Below, piece after piece: positions 2,578-15,602 of a stretch of DNA of 35,653 nucleotides. A program made the position numbers and the translations under genes. The stretch spans positions 1-35,653 of the forward strand of contig JAGXIO010000043.1 in assembly GCA_024635555.1 (NCBI GenBank). Reading direction: 5' to 3'. The notes beneath the pieces were generated by a model, which saw only the letters and a list, made by a program, of their open reading frames with translations, did not search any database and was not told the DNA's origin. Numbering within the stretch: the stretch's first letter is position 1; the number at the start of each line of letters is the position of its first letter. The DNA comes from Saccharicrinis sp. Lineage in GTDB: Bacteria > Bacteroidota > Bacteroidia > Bacteroidales > Marinilabiliaceae.

Positions 2578-2592
2578 TATACCTATCAAAAT

Positions 2593-2622
2593 ACCTGTCA
2601 GCGTCGATAGACCTGACAGCGT
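2593..2622. repeat. REP-like palindrome upstream of RAYT
   Basis: CTGTCAG pairs with CTGACAG. An inner GTC/GAC pair closes a GATA loop, with one unpaired C between the two stem parts. Same architecture as the palindromes at 2706, 3086 and 3511. Confidence 0.8.
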
Positions 2623-2648
2623 ATGAAAGGTGTAAGTATATTAATAAA

Positions 2649-2717
2649 TCGTTTTTCAATAACGCTGACAATCGTTTTTCAACAACGCTGACAATCGGTT
2701 TTTATAACGCTGACAGG
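2649..2717. repeat. Three 23-bp direct repeats containing half-REPs
   Basis: Three consecutive 23-bp units start at 2649, 2672 and 2695, each with a TTTTT run followed by AACGCTGACA. The last runs directly into the complete palindrome at 2706-2736. They look like half-palindromes duplicated in tandem. Confidence 0.75.
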
Positions 2718-2736
2718 TCTGCGACGCTGTCAGGTT
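2706..2736. repeat. REP-like palindrome upstream of RAYT
   Basis: Stem parts AAC/GTT, CTGACAG/CTGTCAG and GTC/GAC, with a TGC loop and an unpaired G in each arm. It lies 19 bp before the RAYT start codon. Confidence 0.8.
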
Positions 2737-2754
2737 AGGTTTAAAAAATATAAT

Positions 2755-3507
2755 ATGCCGGACAATATAGAAATCATTAAAGAAGGACGTTATTACCATA
2801 TTTATAATCGTGGTATAAATAGTTGTAATCTTTTTAATGAAGAAGGTGACTACTTGCATTTTTTGACGCTTTATGAAAAATTTATCGATCCTGTAGCCAT
2901 TACTTACGCATGGGTATTGATGCCCAATCATTTTCATTGCCTGGTTTATATAAAGGAAGGATTGGTTTATAAATATACCATGGAGGATATCGCCAGGTTT
3001 ACTACAGATGATAAATTGGAAATTAATAAATGGGAAACTATTCCTTTTCAACCTAAACCTAAACCTAAACTTAAACCTAAACCTAAACCTGACAGCGTCA
3101 ACGACCTGTCAGCGTTAAAGGAAAAGGAAAAGGAAAAGGAAAAGGAAAAGTATCTGCTGGAGCATAAAGTACCCGATCCCACCAAACATTTCTCCCATCT
3201 ATTTAATTCCTATTCTAAATATTATAATGCAAAATACATTCGCCACGGAACATTGTTTGAAAGACGATTTAAACGAAAAGTTATTAATTCAGAGGATTAT
3301 TTAAAGCGATGCATAATTTATATCCATAATAATCCCAGCCATCATAAATTTGTTTCACACCCTTTGGAGTATAGTTGGAGCAGCTACTTTGATTACCTTT
3401 CAGAGGAAAATGAAACCATGAAAGAATGTGTTGAAAAATTGTTTGGCGATATAGCTAACTTTAAATACTGCCATAAACATTCCAATAATGATTTTGAATG
3501 GGAGTAG
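2755..3507 (+). CDS. REP-associated tyrosine transposase (RAYT)
   Basis: Y1 transposase of the IS200/IS605-like TnpA-REP family, 250 residues, expected to nick and join single-stranded REP hairpins. The metal-binding HUH motif is HFH (59-61, in LMPNHFHCLV). The likely catalytic tyrosine is Y189, in the family motif YIHNNP. GRYYHIYNRG near the N-terminus is also typical. REP palindromes lie 19 bp upstream and 3 bp downstream, the arrangement expected for this family. Residues 99-132 are an unusual insert: Pro-Lys pairs, then residues read from an in-frame REP (3086-3116), then Lys-Glu pairs. The insert falls between the HUH and tyrosine parts, so the two halves of the active site are intact. 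Whether the protein is active is unknown. Confidence 0.88.
   Translation: MPDNIEIIKEGRYYHIYNRGINSCNLFNEEGDYLHFLTLYEKFIDPVAITYAWVLMPNHFHCLVYIKEGLVYKYTMEDIARFTTDDKLEINKWETIPFQPKPKPKLKPKPKPDSVNDLSALKEKEKEKEKEKYLLEHKVPDPTKHFSHLFNSYSKYYNAKYIRHGTLFERRFKRKVINSEDYLKRCIIYIHNNPSHHKFVSHPLEYSWSSYFDYLSEENETMKECVEKLFGDIANFKYCHKHSNNDFEWE
3051..3150. repeat. In-frame REP flanked by hexamer runs inside RAYT
   Basis: A CCTAAA hexamer run (about 3052-3090) leads into a complete REP at 3086-3116 with stems AAC/GTT, CTGACAG/CTGTCAG and GTC/GAC, an AAC loop and one unpaired C in each arm. A GGAAAA hexamer run (about 3118-3150) follows. Everything stays in frame. Confidence 0.85.
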
Positions 3508-3510
3508 TCC

Positions 3511-3542
3511 AACCTGTCAGCGTCGTTAGACCTGACAGCGTT
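3511..3542. repeat. REP-like palindrome downstream of RAYT
   Basis: Stems AAC/GTT, CTGTCAG/CTGACAG and GTC/GAC with a GTTA loop. It begins 3 bp after the RAYT stop codon. A degraded half follows at 3566-3576. Confidence 0.85.
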
Positions 3543-3614: not shown

Positions 3615-4880
3615 ATGTCAATGTCAGATAACATAAAAGTTACCTATTTCTTCCGCAAGCCACAAGCCCAATACTTTTCGATCGAAAGGGTATTTGAACA
3701 GGTGCTGGCCAGTTTGCCTGAACAAGTGAGCCCTGTGGTTTATACTTTAAAAAATGGCGCCAATGGCTTTTGGGGCAGGTTAAGGGCTTTAGCTGAGGTC
3801 AGGAAAAATGGAGGTGCTGTCAATCACATTACAGGCGACATCACCTTTGTGGCGCTGGCCTTACCTAAAAAAGGACTGGTGGTTACCTATCACGATTTGG
3901 AATCATTAACACAGTTTACCGGATGGAGGTTTAAGCTATTGAAATATTTGTGGGTGACCCTGCCGGTAAAGCGAGCCCAGATCGTAACTTCCATTTCGGA
4001 GCATACCAAAGAGCAACTCATCAAGTGGACGGGATGTAATTCTGGTAAAATAGTGGTGGTGCCGAACCCCTTGCCCGAAGAATTAAAATATGCACCTAAG
4101 GTTTTTAATGCTGATAACCCGGTTATATTGGTGATGGGAACCAAAGACAATAAAAATGTGGAAGGGGTTTTTAGGGCGGTGAGTAGGTTTCAGTCAACTG
4201 TAGGCAGGGGGCAAGGGGCAAGGGGCAGTTCTCAGTTCTCAGTAAACAGTAAACAGTTGGAGCGAAGCAGCCTGTCCCGAACTCGATTCGGGAACATCCC
4301 GTCTCCTTATTCAAATTTATTTTTTGACGGGAAAGCAGTCAACAGTGATCAGTCAATAGCGGGTAATGAGCAGATATTAGATGGAGATAAGGGTGTTAAT
4401 GAAGAGGGAAGGGATAAACGGGGTGACATGTCAGAGGTAGAAATACCCAAAGTGAGTTGCAAGGTGTTGCTGGTGGGAGAGATGACGCAGGAACAAAAGG
4501 AACTGGCAGATCAATTAAACCTTGAGGTGGAAAATTTGGTACAAGTGCCTTACGAACTGATATTAGATGCATACAAACGATGCGATATGTTATGTTTTCC
4601 TAGTTTTTATGAGGGTTTTGGCCTGCCCATAGTGGAAGCTCAGGCCATAGGACGACCGGTGATTACCTCCAATTTTGGTGCTATGAAAGAAGTGGCAGGT
4701 GAAGGAGCTATTTTAGTCTGCCCCAATAAAGTGGAAGAGATAGCTGAGGCAATAGATAGAGTAATTGTAGATGAGGAATTTAGGGATAAACTCATCCAAG
4801 CCGGATTGAAAAATGTGGAGCGCTTTGATGCAAAAAAAGTGGCCCGGATGTATGCGGAGGTTTATAGGGTTCAAGGTTAA
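3615..4880 (+). CDS. GT4 glycosyltransferase with an internal repeat insertion
   Basis: GT-B glycosyltransferase of 421 residues. The acceptor domain includes VNHITGDITFVALAL and VVTYHDLESL. The linker IVTSISEHTKEQL...IVVVPNPL leads to the donor domain, whose start VILVMGTKDNKNVEGVFRAVSRF is separated from its continuation SCKVLLVGEMTQEQ by about 85 low-complexity residues (about 193-277). E-x7-E is present in YEGFGLPIVEAQ (E333/E341). Relatives run directly from one strand to the next, so the extra segment is an insertion. At DNA level it consists of heptamers and palindromes found elsewhere in the window. The frame is intact, but folding and activity are uncertain. ATG at 3615, with a second ATG at 3621. 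Confidence 0.85.
   Translation: MSMSDNIKVTYFFRKPQAQYFSIERVFEQVLASLPEQVSPVVYTLKNGANGFWGRLRALAEVRKNGGAVNHITGDITFVALALPKKGLVVTYHDLESLTQFTGWRFKLLKYLWVTLPVKRAQIVTSISEHTKEQLIKWTGCNSGKIVVVPNPLPEELKYAPKVFNADNPVILVMGTKDNKNVEGVFRAVSRFQSTVGRGQGARGSSQFSVNSKQLERSSLSRTRFGNIPSPYSNLFFDGKAVNSDQSIAGNEQILDGDKGVNEEGRDKRGDMSEVEIPKVSCKVLLVGEMTQEQKELADQLNLEVENLVQVPYELILDAYKRCDMLCFPSFYEGFGLPIVEAQAIGRPVITSNFGAMKEVAGEGAILVCPNKVEEIAEAIDRVIVDEEFRDKLIQAGLKNVERFDAKKVARMYAEVYRVQG
4208..4293. repeat. Heptamers and palindrome inside a glycosyltransferase gene
   Basis: Seven consecutive 7-bp units from 4208: GGGGCAA twice, GGGGCAG, TTCTCAG twice, TAAACAG twice. Then comes GGAGCGAAGC, also found reversed near 5010. A hairpin TCCCGAA/TTCGGGA follows at 4275-4293, the same stem as near 1204-1223. 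Confidence 0.8.
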
Positions 4881-7839: not shown

Positions 7840-9054
7840 TTAATAATTGCTTAACATTAAAAAATCTGCTATATGAATATGCTTCACGCCTTTCATATTA
7901 TCTTTCCAAAACTTATCCATGGTTACAACATATTTGGGATAATTATCCTTTATTTGCAATAGGGGTGCAAACTCCCTGTCCACCGTTGATGGCTCTGATA
8001 ACAGATAAGCAACTTGTATATATATGGTACTGTTACCTCTTGAAGCTACAAAATCGATTTCAGTATTGTCAAGTTTTCCAACATATACCTGGTACTCCCT
8101 TCTTTTAAGCTCCAGCATAACAATGTTTTCGAGAACACCGGCAATAATTCTGTCTTTATATCCCATAACCGAATAAAGCAGTGCCGTATCGGCAGCATAG
8201 TATTTTTCCTGGGTCTTTAGTATCTCCTTCCCTTTTACGTCAAACCTGTTTAAGCGGTGAAGAATAAATGCACTTTCAAGTGCTTTTAGGTAGTTATAAA
8301 TGGTATTAATATCCACTTTTCGCTGTTGGCTTTTAAAATAATCGGCAACATTTTTACCCGAAAATTTATTGCCAATATTATCAAAAACAAATTTAACCAC
8401 GCGTTCGAGTAACTCGATATCTCTTATGTTATTGCGCTGGATGGTATCGCGTAGGATGACCGAAGAATAAATATCAAAAACAATTTTATAGGCTGTTTCG
8501 TATGTGTAATTGGAAGTATGCAATACAGGAAATCCCCCCATACGTAAATACGTCTCAAATGCGCTATAGATATCATCTATATTATTATGGCGTTCCTGGT
8601 TAAAATACAGATATTCGCTAAAAGACAAAGTGAAAATTGGCAACTCGATATACCTACCTGCCAGAAAAGTGGCCAGTTCGGAAGATAATATGTGGGAGTT
8701 GGAACCTGTAATATAAATATCGGTATTAAAATCAACAATAAACGAGTTAATTGCTTTCTCCCAATTGTTTACTACCTGAACTTCGTCAAAAATAAGATAG
8801 TAACGTTTGGTGTGGTCAATTTTTGTATCGATGTGCTTATATAAGGTAGTGGCATCTTTTAAATGGGAAAAACGGAAGCTCTCGAAATTAATGTATATAA
8901 TCTGATCGTCACGGACACCTTGTTCATGCAGTTTTTCAATTAAAAGCATGAGTACCGACGATTTGCCGCTTCTCCGGATGCCTGTAATGACTTTTATAAA
9001 GGGCTTATCGATATAGGGTAGCAACTTGTTGATATATAAATCGCGTTGAAACAT
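7840..9054 (-). CDS. AAA ATPase with DUF4143 domain
   Basis: 404-residue P-loop ATPase of the AAA_14/DUF4143 type, common in Bacteroidota and archaea. Walker A is GIRRSGKSS (25-33), Walker B is YYLIFDEVQ (85-93), and a sensor-like YITGSNS follows at 114-120. LAGRYIELPIFTLSFSEYL is diagnostic. The C-terminal part (about 200-370) holds the DUF4143 domain, with a nuclease-like strand pattern IDFVASRGNSTIYIQVAYL. I start at the ATG at 9054. The role of the family is not established; it is often found near mobile or toxin-antitoxin genes, as here. A TACATTTG box lies about 25 bp upstream. Confidence 0.88.
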   Translation of the reverse strand: MFQRDLYINKLLPYIDKPFIKVITGIRRSGKSSVLMLLIEKLHEQGVRDDQIIYINFESFRFSHLKDATTLYKHIDTKIDHTKRYYLIFDEVQVVNNWEKAINSFIVDFNTDIYITGSNSHILSSELATFLAGRYIELPIFTLSFSEYLYFNQERHNNIDDIYSAFETYLRMGGFPVLHTSNYTYETAYKIVFDIYSSVILRDTIQRNNIRDIELLERVVKFVFDNIGNKFSGKNVADYFKSQQRKVDINTIYNYLKALESAFILHRLNRFDVKGKEILKTQEKYYAADTALLYSVMGYKDRIIAGVLENIVMLELKRREYQVYVGKLDNTEIDFVASRGNSTIYIQVAYLLSEPSTVDREFAPLLQIKDNYPKYVVTMDKFWKDNMKGVKHIHIADFLMLSNY

Positions 9055-13170: not shown

Positions 13171-13227
13171 CAACGCTGTCAGGAGCTACGCACGCTGACA
13201 GGTTGAGCTACGCACGCTGACCGGTTG
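13171..13227. repeat. REP-like palindrome with duplicated right half
   Basis: 13171-13205: CAAC/GTTG and CTGTCAG/CTGACAG stems with an unpaired G and a 12-nt loop (GAGCTACGCACG). The right half recurs at 13206-13227 (AGCTACGCACGCTGACCGGTTG). This is the second REP subtype, shared with 15566-15602. Confidence 0.8.
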
Positions 13228-15565: not shown

Positions 15566-15602
15566 AAAACGCTGTCAGGAACTACGTACGCTGACAGGTT
15601 TT
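15566..15602. repeat. REP-like palindrome overlapping a gene end
   Basis: AAAAC/GTTTT and CTGTCAG/CTGACAG stems with an unpaired G and loop GAACTACGTACG. Same subtype as 13171-13205. The stop codon of the glycosyltransferase lies in its loop. Confidence 0.85.

Follow-up and report, generated by a model that had tools for sequence, protein, structure and literature searches.

The RAYT gene and its palindromes

The window, as the whole analysed stretch of DNA is called here (35,653 nucleotides of contig JAGXIO010000043.1 from Saccharicrinis sp.), contains at positions 2755 to 3507 of the forward strand an open frame of 250 amino acids that is assigned by its motifs and a sub-threshold NCBIfam match to the RAYT (TnpAREP-like Y1/HUH) transposases. 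The HUH motif (NHFH) occupies codons 58 to 61, and the Tyr motif (YIHNNP) starts at codon 189, with a spacing of 131 residues; the protein thus combines an HUH motif with a Tyr motif of the form Y---NP, as RAYT/TnpAREP proteins do. The NCBIfam model REP_Tyr_transpos matches it with an E value of 1.7e-14 and a score of 53.9 bits, which is under the curated cut-off of 80. A Pfam search returned no family at an E value of 1, and the protein is not among the 10 matches to PF01797 in the window's genome. Alignment with the E. coli TnpAREP structure 4er8 is very weak (E value of 0.032, neither stretch being significant alone) and places a loop insertion between chain residues 69 and 93; the position of the loop used below comes from this alignment and the motif spacing. 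Structure prediction from the single sequence reached a mean pLDDT of only 38. The same genome encodes two more weak relatives of this protein, with 43% and 29% identity over short stretches.

As the original prediction stated, three REP palindromes flank this gene and a fourth lies in frame inside it. The upstream copies are at 2592 to 2623 (forward strand) and, in the opposite orientation, at 2706 to 2736 (reverse strand); the downstream copy, at 3511 to 3542 of the forward strand, begins three bases past the stop codon. The internal copy, referred to below as site 2, is found at 3086 to 3116 of the forward strand and codes for K-PDSVNDLSA-L. All four form 13 of 13 pairs, all of them Watson-Crick, and share one design with AAC/GTT, CTGWCAG/CTGWCAG, and GTC/GAC stems and one unpaired base per arm. 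The internal copy was also said to be complete and better paired than the others; it is complete, but its pairing equals that of the copies at 2706 and 3511, and the copy at 2592 differs in its outer pair, which is T-A. Just upstream of the gene, at 2647 to 2715 of the forward strand, a 23-bp tandem repeat in three copies carries a half REP in each (AACGCTGAC).

The genome search for the palindrome that had been proposed along with the prediction found 11 exact copies of the full pattern and 31 half sites in the window's genome, with none for either pattern read backwards. Thus, the palindromes that flank the gene in three copies are repeated elsewhere in the genome, as is expected of a RAYT. 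The design pattern without the unpaired bases has no matches in this genome, five letter-shuffled windows gave none with the same palindrome scorer, and the internal copy folds as RNA with a z score of -4.7. The genome counts against the backward controls, the empty shuffled windows, and the fold together argue that the internal REP is not a product of chance. Seven full copies lie outside the window. Judged from open frames of at least 60 amino acids rather than from gene calls, the copy at L012 overlaps the end of a long frame, that at L019 overlaps two frames, and none of the others is located in a frame beyond its first ATG, so that the RAYT gene is the only one found with an exact REP copy clearly in its interior. 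GT[AG]G occurs within 12 nt of a foot in 2 of the 11 exact copies and directly at the foot in none. CGTC-tagged REPs (PMC3733652) were set aside as a model, since CGTC is found here at the loop and not at an end. At 13172 to 13204 and 15568 to 15600, the window contains REPs of another subfamily, whose loop is CGTAG and whose inner stem is imperfectly paired; palindromes with CGTAG or CGAAG loops are also found inside the RAYT genes of L063, L069, and L073.

Within the gene, the internal REP is abutted on its 5' side by an (AACCTA)6.8 array (3050 to 3090, forward strand), which codes for KPKPKLKPKPK, and on its 3' side by an (AAAGGA)5.7 array (3117 to 3150, forward strand), which codes for KEKEKEKEKE. 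Both hexamer arrays are near perfect, and a GTTAAT repeat occupies the place of a further palindrome (site 1, see below) in L062, which might reflect slippage beside a hairpin. A KWET motif is encoded upstream, at 3028 to 3039 of the forward strand, between the two internal palindrome sites; KWET, KWDT, or KWKT is also found in palindrome-free homologues. The glycosyltransferase encoded downstream of the RAYT gene (3615 to 4880) is 54 residues longer than its homologue in G066, mostly owing to one stretch (residues about 190 to 290) that holds short 7-bp repeats and is perhaps another in-frame repeat insertion.

Internal palindromes across RAYT homologues

Relatives of the window protein are present in 77 of the 198 genomes searched. 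The survey set comprises 91 homologous ORF pieces of at least 100 amino acids from 90 loci (L052 and L056 to L144, with L065 represented by two pieces). It was obtained from 94 pieces by removing two duplicates and one 448-aa frame that matched only partially over a short stretch (40 bits), and it leaves out at least 10 places among the matches listed, in G035, G046, G074, G087, G104, G116, G154, and G173, together with any matches beyond those listed. A scan of genome contigs returned one distant relative, and a plasmid search for named relatives returned 3 weak matches. The G052 protein, compared with all 14 genomes of its genus, has matches at an E value of 1e-40 in 3 of them, all already known.

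At a threshold of at least 12 of 13 pairs, 37 of the 91 pieces contain internal palindromes, 51 in total, against 4.3 in Markov-resampled genes. An internal REP had been predicted to be unusual; its frequency among these pieces, and the description of REPs inside tnpAREP genes already in print in 2018, show that it is not unusual in this part of the family. The remaining 54 pieces have no internal palindrome at this threshold, so that it is not essential to RAYTs generally. Where a gene has both the HUH and the Tyr motif, its internal palindromes sit mostly between the two (38 of 41), in a segment accounting for 21% of the length. The distance between these motifs ranges from 61 to 150 amino acids, with a median of 100 in genes with a palindrome and 84 in those without. 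Palindromes are also dense outside the RAYT genes (137, against 9.7 in shuffles). L124 (in G172) has thirteen of them, in alternating forms and with a spacing of ~87 bp, on both sides of the RAYT gene, which resembles a BIME array.

Internal palindromes resemble those that flank the same gene. In 23 ORF pieces, the mean similarity is 0.73, compared with 0.30 for permuted partners (0 of 20,000 permutations as high), and for 19 of 31 internal palindromes the gene's own flanks rank in the top 5%, with L094, L082, and one of the palindromes of L073 matching their own flanks poorly. The matching stems vary by branch, with ACGTGTTAGG in L115, TCAAGCCTTCACT in L137, and AAGCAAAGC in L112, which argues that common descent alone does not account for the match. 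On a tree of 80 rows, built with the loop columns excluded and with a stricter label for presence (28 rows), palindrome presence requires 19 parsimony changes, compared with a shuffled mean of 23, or at least 4 if the starred branches alone are trusted. Judging from these sequences, gain and loss of the internal palindrome seem to be frequent in branches other than that of the window. Some carriers are broken, by a stop codon in L061, L062, and L065 or by division into two frames in L064, and L066 is also among the relatives broken by a stop or frameshift; in such genes, selection has either ceased or works by a route other than the protein. The stop codon of L065 falls within its palindrome.

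Much of this could be accounted for by neutral insertion. REPs are reported to gather near rayt genes (Nunvar 2010), and of the copies scattered around their own RAYT gene only those landing in frame in the dispensable β3-αC loop would survive, without any role, which is the reading given by Quentin 2018. The concentration of palindromes between the two motifs, their density in the flanks, the many changes of presence on the tree, and a motif distance that is variable and larger where a palindrome is present all agree with it. Such an origin may well hold for other branches. As an explanation for the branch of the window, however, it appears rather unlikely, as it leaves unaccounted for the third-position conservation across two genera, the pairing beyond what the peptide requires, and the persistence of palindromes in genomes in which no other copies were found, all of which are described below.

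Conservation of the internal sites in two genera

Site 2, with the consensus K-PDSVxDLSA-L, follows KWET in nine genes of the genera g1 and g12, at a distance that varies through small inserts; L083 was removed from this group as a false match. Most of these genes also contain a second palindrome of opposed orientation upstream of KWET, site 1, which codes for N-ADRSxDAVRF. It is absent from the window gene, where the corresponding place (2986 to 3017, forward strand) forms 6 of 13 pairs. The same glycosyltransferase gene adjoins the RAYT gene in G000, G066, G054, G034, and G007 and is 53 to 60% identical to that of the window, whereas no such neighbour was observed beside the RAYT in G052, G062, and G008. 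G046 and G066 have other nearby genes in common. The common neighbour in five genomes implies that the palindrome has resided there for as long as the glycosyltransferases have been diverging, unless the whole block was transferred together. The locus in G007 (L151, 7258 to 7969 and 8210 to 9233) has the same order of upstream glycosyltransferase, RAYT, and downstream glycosyltransferase as the window (2755 to 3507 and 3615 to 4880). Its RAYT and downstream glycosyltransferase are on the opposite strand compared to the window, and its REPs are at 7983 and 8210, an arrangement that is not one simple inversion.

The DNA of these sites is conserved beyond the protein. In 8 near homologues (28 pairs), identical residues are encoded by the same codon with a frequency of 0.91 at site 2 and 0.50 elsewhere, and third-position identity is 0.81 at site 2 and 0.44 elsewhere, whereas amino acid identity is similar (0.66 and 0.58). 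Site 2 tops the third-position identity of 187 ten-codon windows; by the same-codon measure, the site-1 window comes first (0.96), followed by site 2 (0.94). In the five genes of g12, the two palindrome sites have the highest third-position values among 229 windows (0.89 and 0.83, against a median of 0.43), and the DNA-level conservation tally for the 10 pairs of these genes is 100 of 108 against 449 of 918. Homologues from other genera carrying the insert with diverged DNA had been named beforehand as a sign that it is an ordinary part of the protein. The outcome is divided: the insert does occur in homologues, with DNA far less diverged than the remainder of the gene. The suggestion of a recent landing is contradicted by the recurrence of the palindrome at the equivalent position in nine genes from two genera, five of them beside the same glycosyltransferase gene, and by this conservation of DNA beyond that of the protein.

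Pairing, too, exceeds the share contributed by the peptide. When synonymous codons were redrawn at site 2 (with L065 left out), 7 of 8 genes showed an excess of pairs (p of 0.011 or less), the exception being L062 (p of 0.21), where site 2 has decayed to 8 of 13 Watson-Crick pairs; it is weaker also in L057 (10 of 13). The redrawn codons of the window gene average 6.4 pairs, and none of 20,000 draws reached its 13. At site 1, for which all 15 rows were covered, 9 genes have excess pairing and 6 do not (the window gene, L057, L060, L062, L068, and L069). The peptide PDSVxDLSAL does recur in homologues, as it would if this were an ordinary stretch of protein whose codons are palindromic by accident. 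However, the redraws of the window gene and the identity in sequence between the internal stretch and extragenic REPs contradict that reading at site 2, and on these sequence comparisons it is almost certainly wrong. Overall, the insert in the window's branch looks to be neither recent nor ordinary protein.

Changes in one arm of the palindromes tend to be matched in the other. Site 2 has 5 cells changed on both sides, compared with 1.3 in shuffles, and site 1, in an alignment of 14 of its 15 rows that leaves out the window gene, has 16, compared with 5.5; in both cases, 0 of 500 shuffles were as high. The site-1 places of L056, L057, and L064 were picked by best pairing, which favours these genes in the compensation counts, the redraws, and the tally of Watson-Crick and G-T pairs given below. 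With site 1 at a fixed offset, 11 rows form 109 of 143 pairs, compared with 93.3 when permuted (6 of 5,000 as high). Shifting the structures by 1 to 3 columns lowers the pairing to 37% of cells or less, from 83.5% and 93.2% in place. The counts of pair types at the two sites are not above chance (331 and 397 of 500 shuffles as high), and the number of site-1 pairs changed on both sides was reached by 47 of 500 shuffles. The significance of all such shuffles is overstated, because the sequences are few and related. Mutation bias could produce the same pattern, since template switching in a hairpin during replication can mend imperfect arms, and pairing would then persist without selection. This process would account for the compensatory changes and the near-strict Watson-Crick pairing, and the hexamer arrays that abut the window hairpin are themselves a sign of replication slippage. 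It would keep the arms complementary but would not hold their sequence constant between genera, as the third positions show it to be, and so is an improbable explanation.

An alternative in the original prediction was a hairpin that acts in the mRNA, through translation, stability, or binding of the RAYT to its own transcript. Strong RNA folds are predicted at six single sites (z scores of -3.0 to -5.1) and for the two-site stretch of L059 (-8.7). RNA helices usually tolerate G-U pairs, whereas the rows with at least 10 Watson-Crick pairs (234 cells) have 222 Watson-Crick pairs, 1 G-T, 3 A-C, and 8 other combinations. This is a weak argument against RNA, since the choice of rows itself limits G-T pairs, and the five excluded rows hold 9 of them. 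The TnpAREP substrates described in PMC8266576 are single-stranded DNA. An mRNA role is thus possible but not favoured and is best regarded as unlikely. A long, REPIN-like hairpin joining the two internal sites, to which the z score of -8.7 might point, was rejected because the CCGACAG/CTGTCGG changes in site 1 preserve the short hairpin instead.

The half site CCTGWCAGYGTC is found once in G052 and once in G062, in each case inside the RAYT gene, and not at all in G046; G008 has one copy inside and five outside. When as many as 3 mismatches and a loop of 3 or 4 are allowed, G052, G062, G046, G034, and G054 have matches inside the gene alone, G066 and G007 each have a further one nearby, both matches in G008 are outside the gene, and G000 has 21, with the internal copy among them. 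In G034 and G054, the gene is also flanked by palindromes whose related design escapes these mismatch patterns. The surroundings of the RAYT gene in G052, G062, and G046 (15.5 to 16 kb) contain no further palindrome of the design with loops of up to 5 and containing CTG. The site-1 variant CCGACAG/CTGTCGG is found in these three genomes within the RAYT gene alone and outside the gene once each in G066 and G000; the pattern is short, with 0 to 5 matches per genome and strand in the backward control, so that only the places of the matches are informative. As the copies found in G052, G062, and G046 lie inside the gene only, they have probably not arrived recently from a pool of that design. The genome-wide search in these three genomes covered one REP design, and a pool of another design could still exist there. 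The new finding that these comparisons suggest is that the intragenic REP of the window's branch is old, is kept at the DNA level, and in some genomes is the sole copy found.

A candidate cis target and its known relatives

Self-targeting, as put forward in the original prediction, stays the best reading of these sequences. In the form proposed here, which has about an even chance of being right, the internal palindrome would be a long-resident DNA hairpin of this RAYT branch, kept in place as a cis target for the RAYT itself. Known TnpAREP enzymes act strand-specifically on REP hairpins in single-stranded DNA, which they bind and cleave, and the E. coli enzyme requires unpaired bases in the hairpin stem (PMC8266576). 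The RAYT might similarly bind, and perhaps nick, the internal hairpin while its gene is single-stranded, on the lagging strand or in a transcription bubble. Such a self-target could mark the gene or limit its expression or copy number, and the internal hairpin could serve as the resident donor of the flanking REP copies and, in the window's genome, of the dispersed ones. The β3-αC loop presumably tolerates the encoded peptide, which would allow the element to live there. Recognition of the DNA hairpin by the gene's own product fits the conserved stem with its unpaired base, the near-strict Watson-Crick pairing, and the match to the flanking copies. The many homologues without a palindrome, the decayed sites, and the broken carriers speak against selection on it in general. 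A bolder version, possible but on the doubtful side, makes the transposase gene the home of the palindrome: one hairpin, or two opposed ones, beside the KWET codons would be selected as the target of the enzyme, even in genomes in which dispersed copies were not found, and the REPs of the window's genome would be a secondary escape from this intragenic master copy.

These possibilities bear on the host role of RAYTs and on the origin of REP families. The suggested order, with the intragenic hairpin first and dispersed REPs later, is the opposite of the usual picture in which REPs land in genes. A self-target in a coding sequence that is near constant at silent sites also offers a defined test of RAYT self-recognition by synonymous mutation.

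The arrangement of a REP within a RAYT gene is itself known. Quentin 2018 (PMC6006769) reports that genes of TnpAREP subclass 2.4 (RAYT group 4) can hold in-frame REPs, generally between HuH and Y, that the region of insertion is peripheral and may have little impact on activity, and that some relatives of subclass 2.8 also have a REP insertion. No claim that the inserts are conserved, compensated, or orthologous was found in its text, and a search of the open-licence literature turned up no further description of REPs located inside RAYT genes. Like subclass 2.4, the window gene has its REP in the β3-αC loop of variable length, as judged by motif spacing, and both the Y motif YIxNNP and the HuH motif NH[IFV]H fit its protein. 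In contrast to that subclass, the protein has LFER where 2.4 has WQ before the Tyr helix, its core is followed by a serine motif (SWSSY) whereas 2.4 has no core extension, and the REPs have no GT[AG]G foot. In the last two respects, and in its Tyr motif, it resembles subclass 2.6 (RAYT group 5, Bacteroidetes; PMC6006769), which has atypical palindromes without GT[AG]G, a YIH[QN]NP motif, and a serine extension. The 21-aa insertion of subclass 2.6 is located between αC and β4, whereas that of the window protein, again by motif spacing, precedes the HFSHLFN helix, and no mention of intragenic REPs in this subclass was found in the text of that paper.

As in the REPtrons of E. coli and Stenotrophomonas (PMC2817692, PMC8266576), inverted palindromes belonging to the RAYT's own family lie on both sides of the window gene. 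In those systems, the flanking REPs of orthologues stay palindromic despite sequence changes, and the E. coli hairpin needs its unpaired stem bases. The REPtron palindromes are flanking ones, whereas the window gene also has an internal palindrome, conserved in place. In-frame palindromic repeats within coding genes are also known as intragenic REPs and Rickettsia palindromic elements (PMC3733652), and a figure legend in that paper describes repeats that overlap tyrosine transposase genes at their ends. However, the intragenic elements named there reside in uvrA, DnaE2, recB, and other genes, and the paper makes a case against their being functionally constrained, whereas the host gene in the window is the cognate transposase and the copy lies in its interior.
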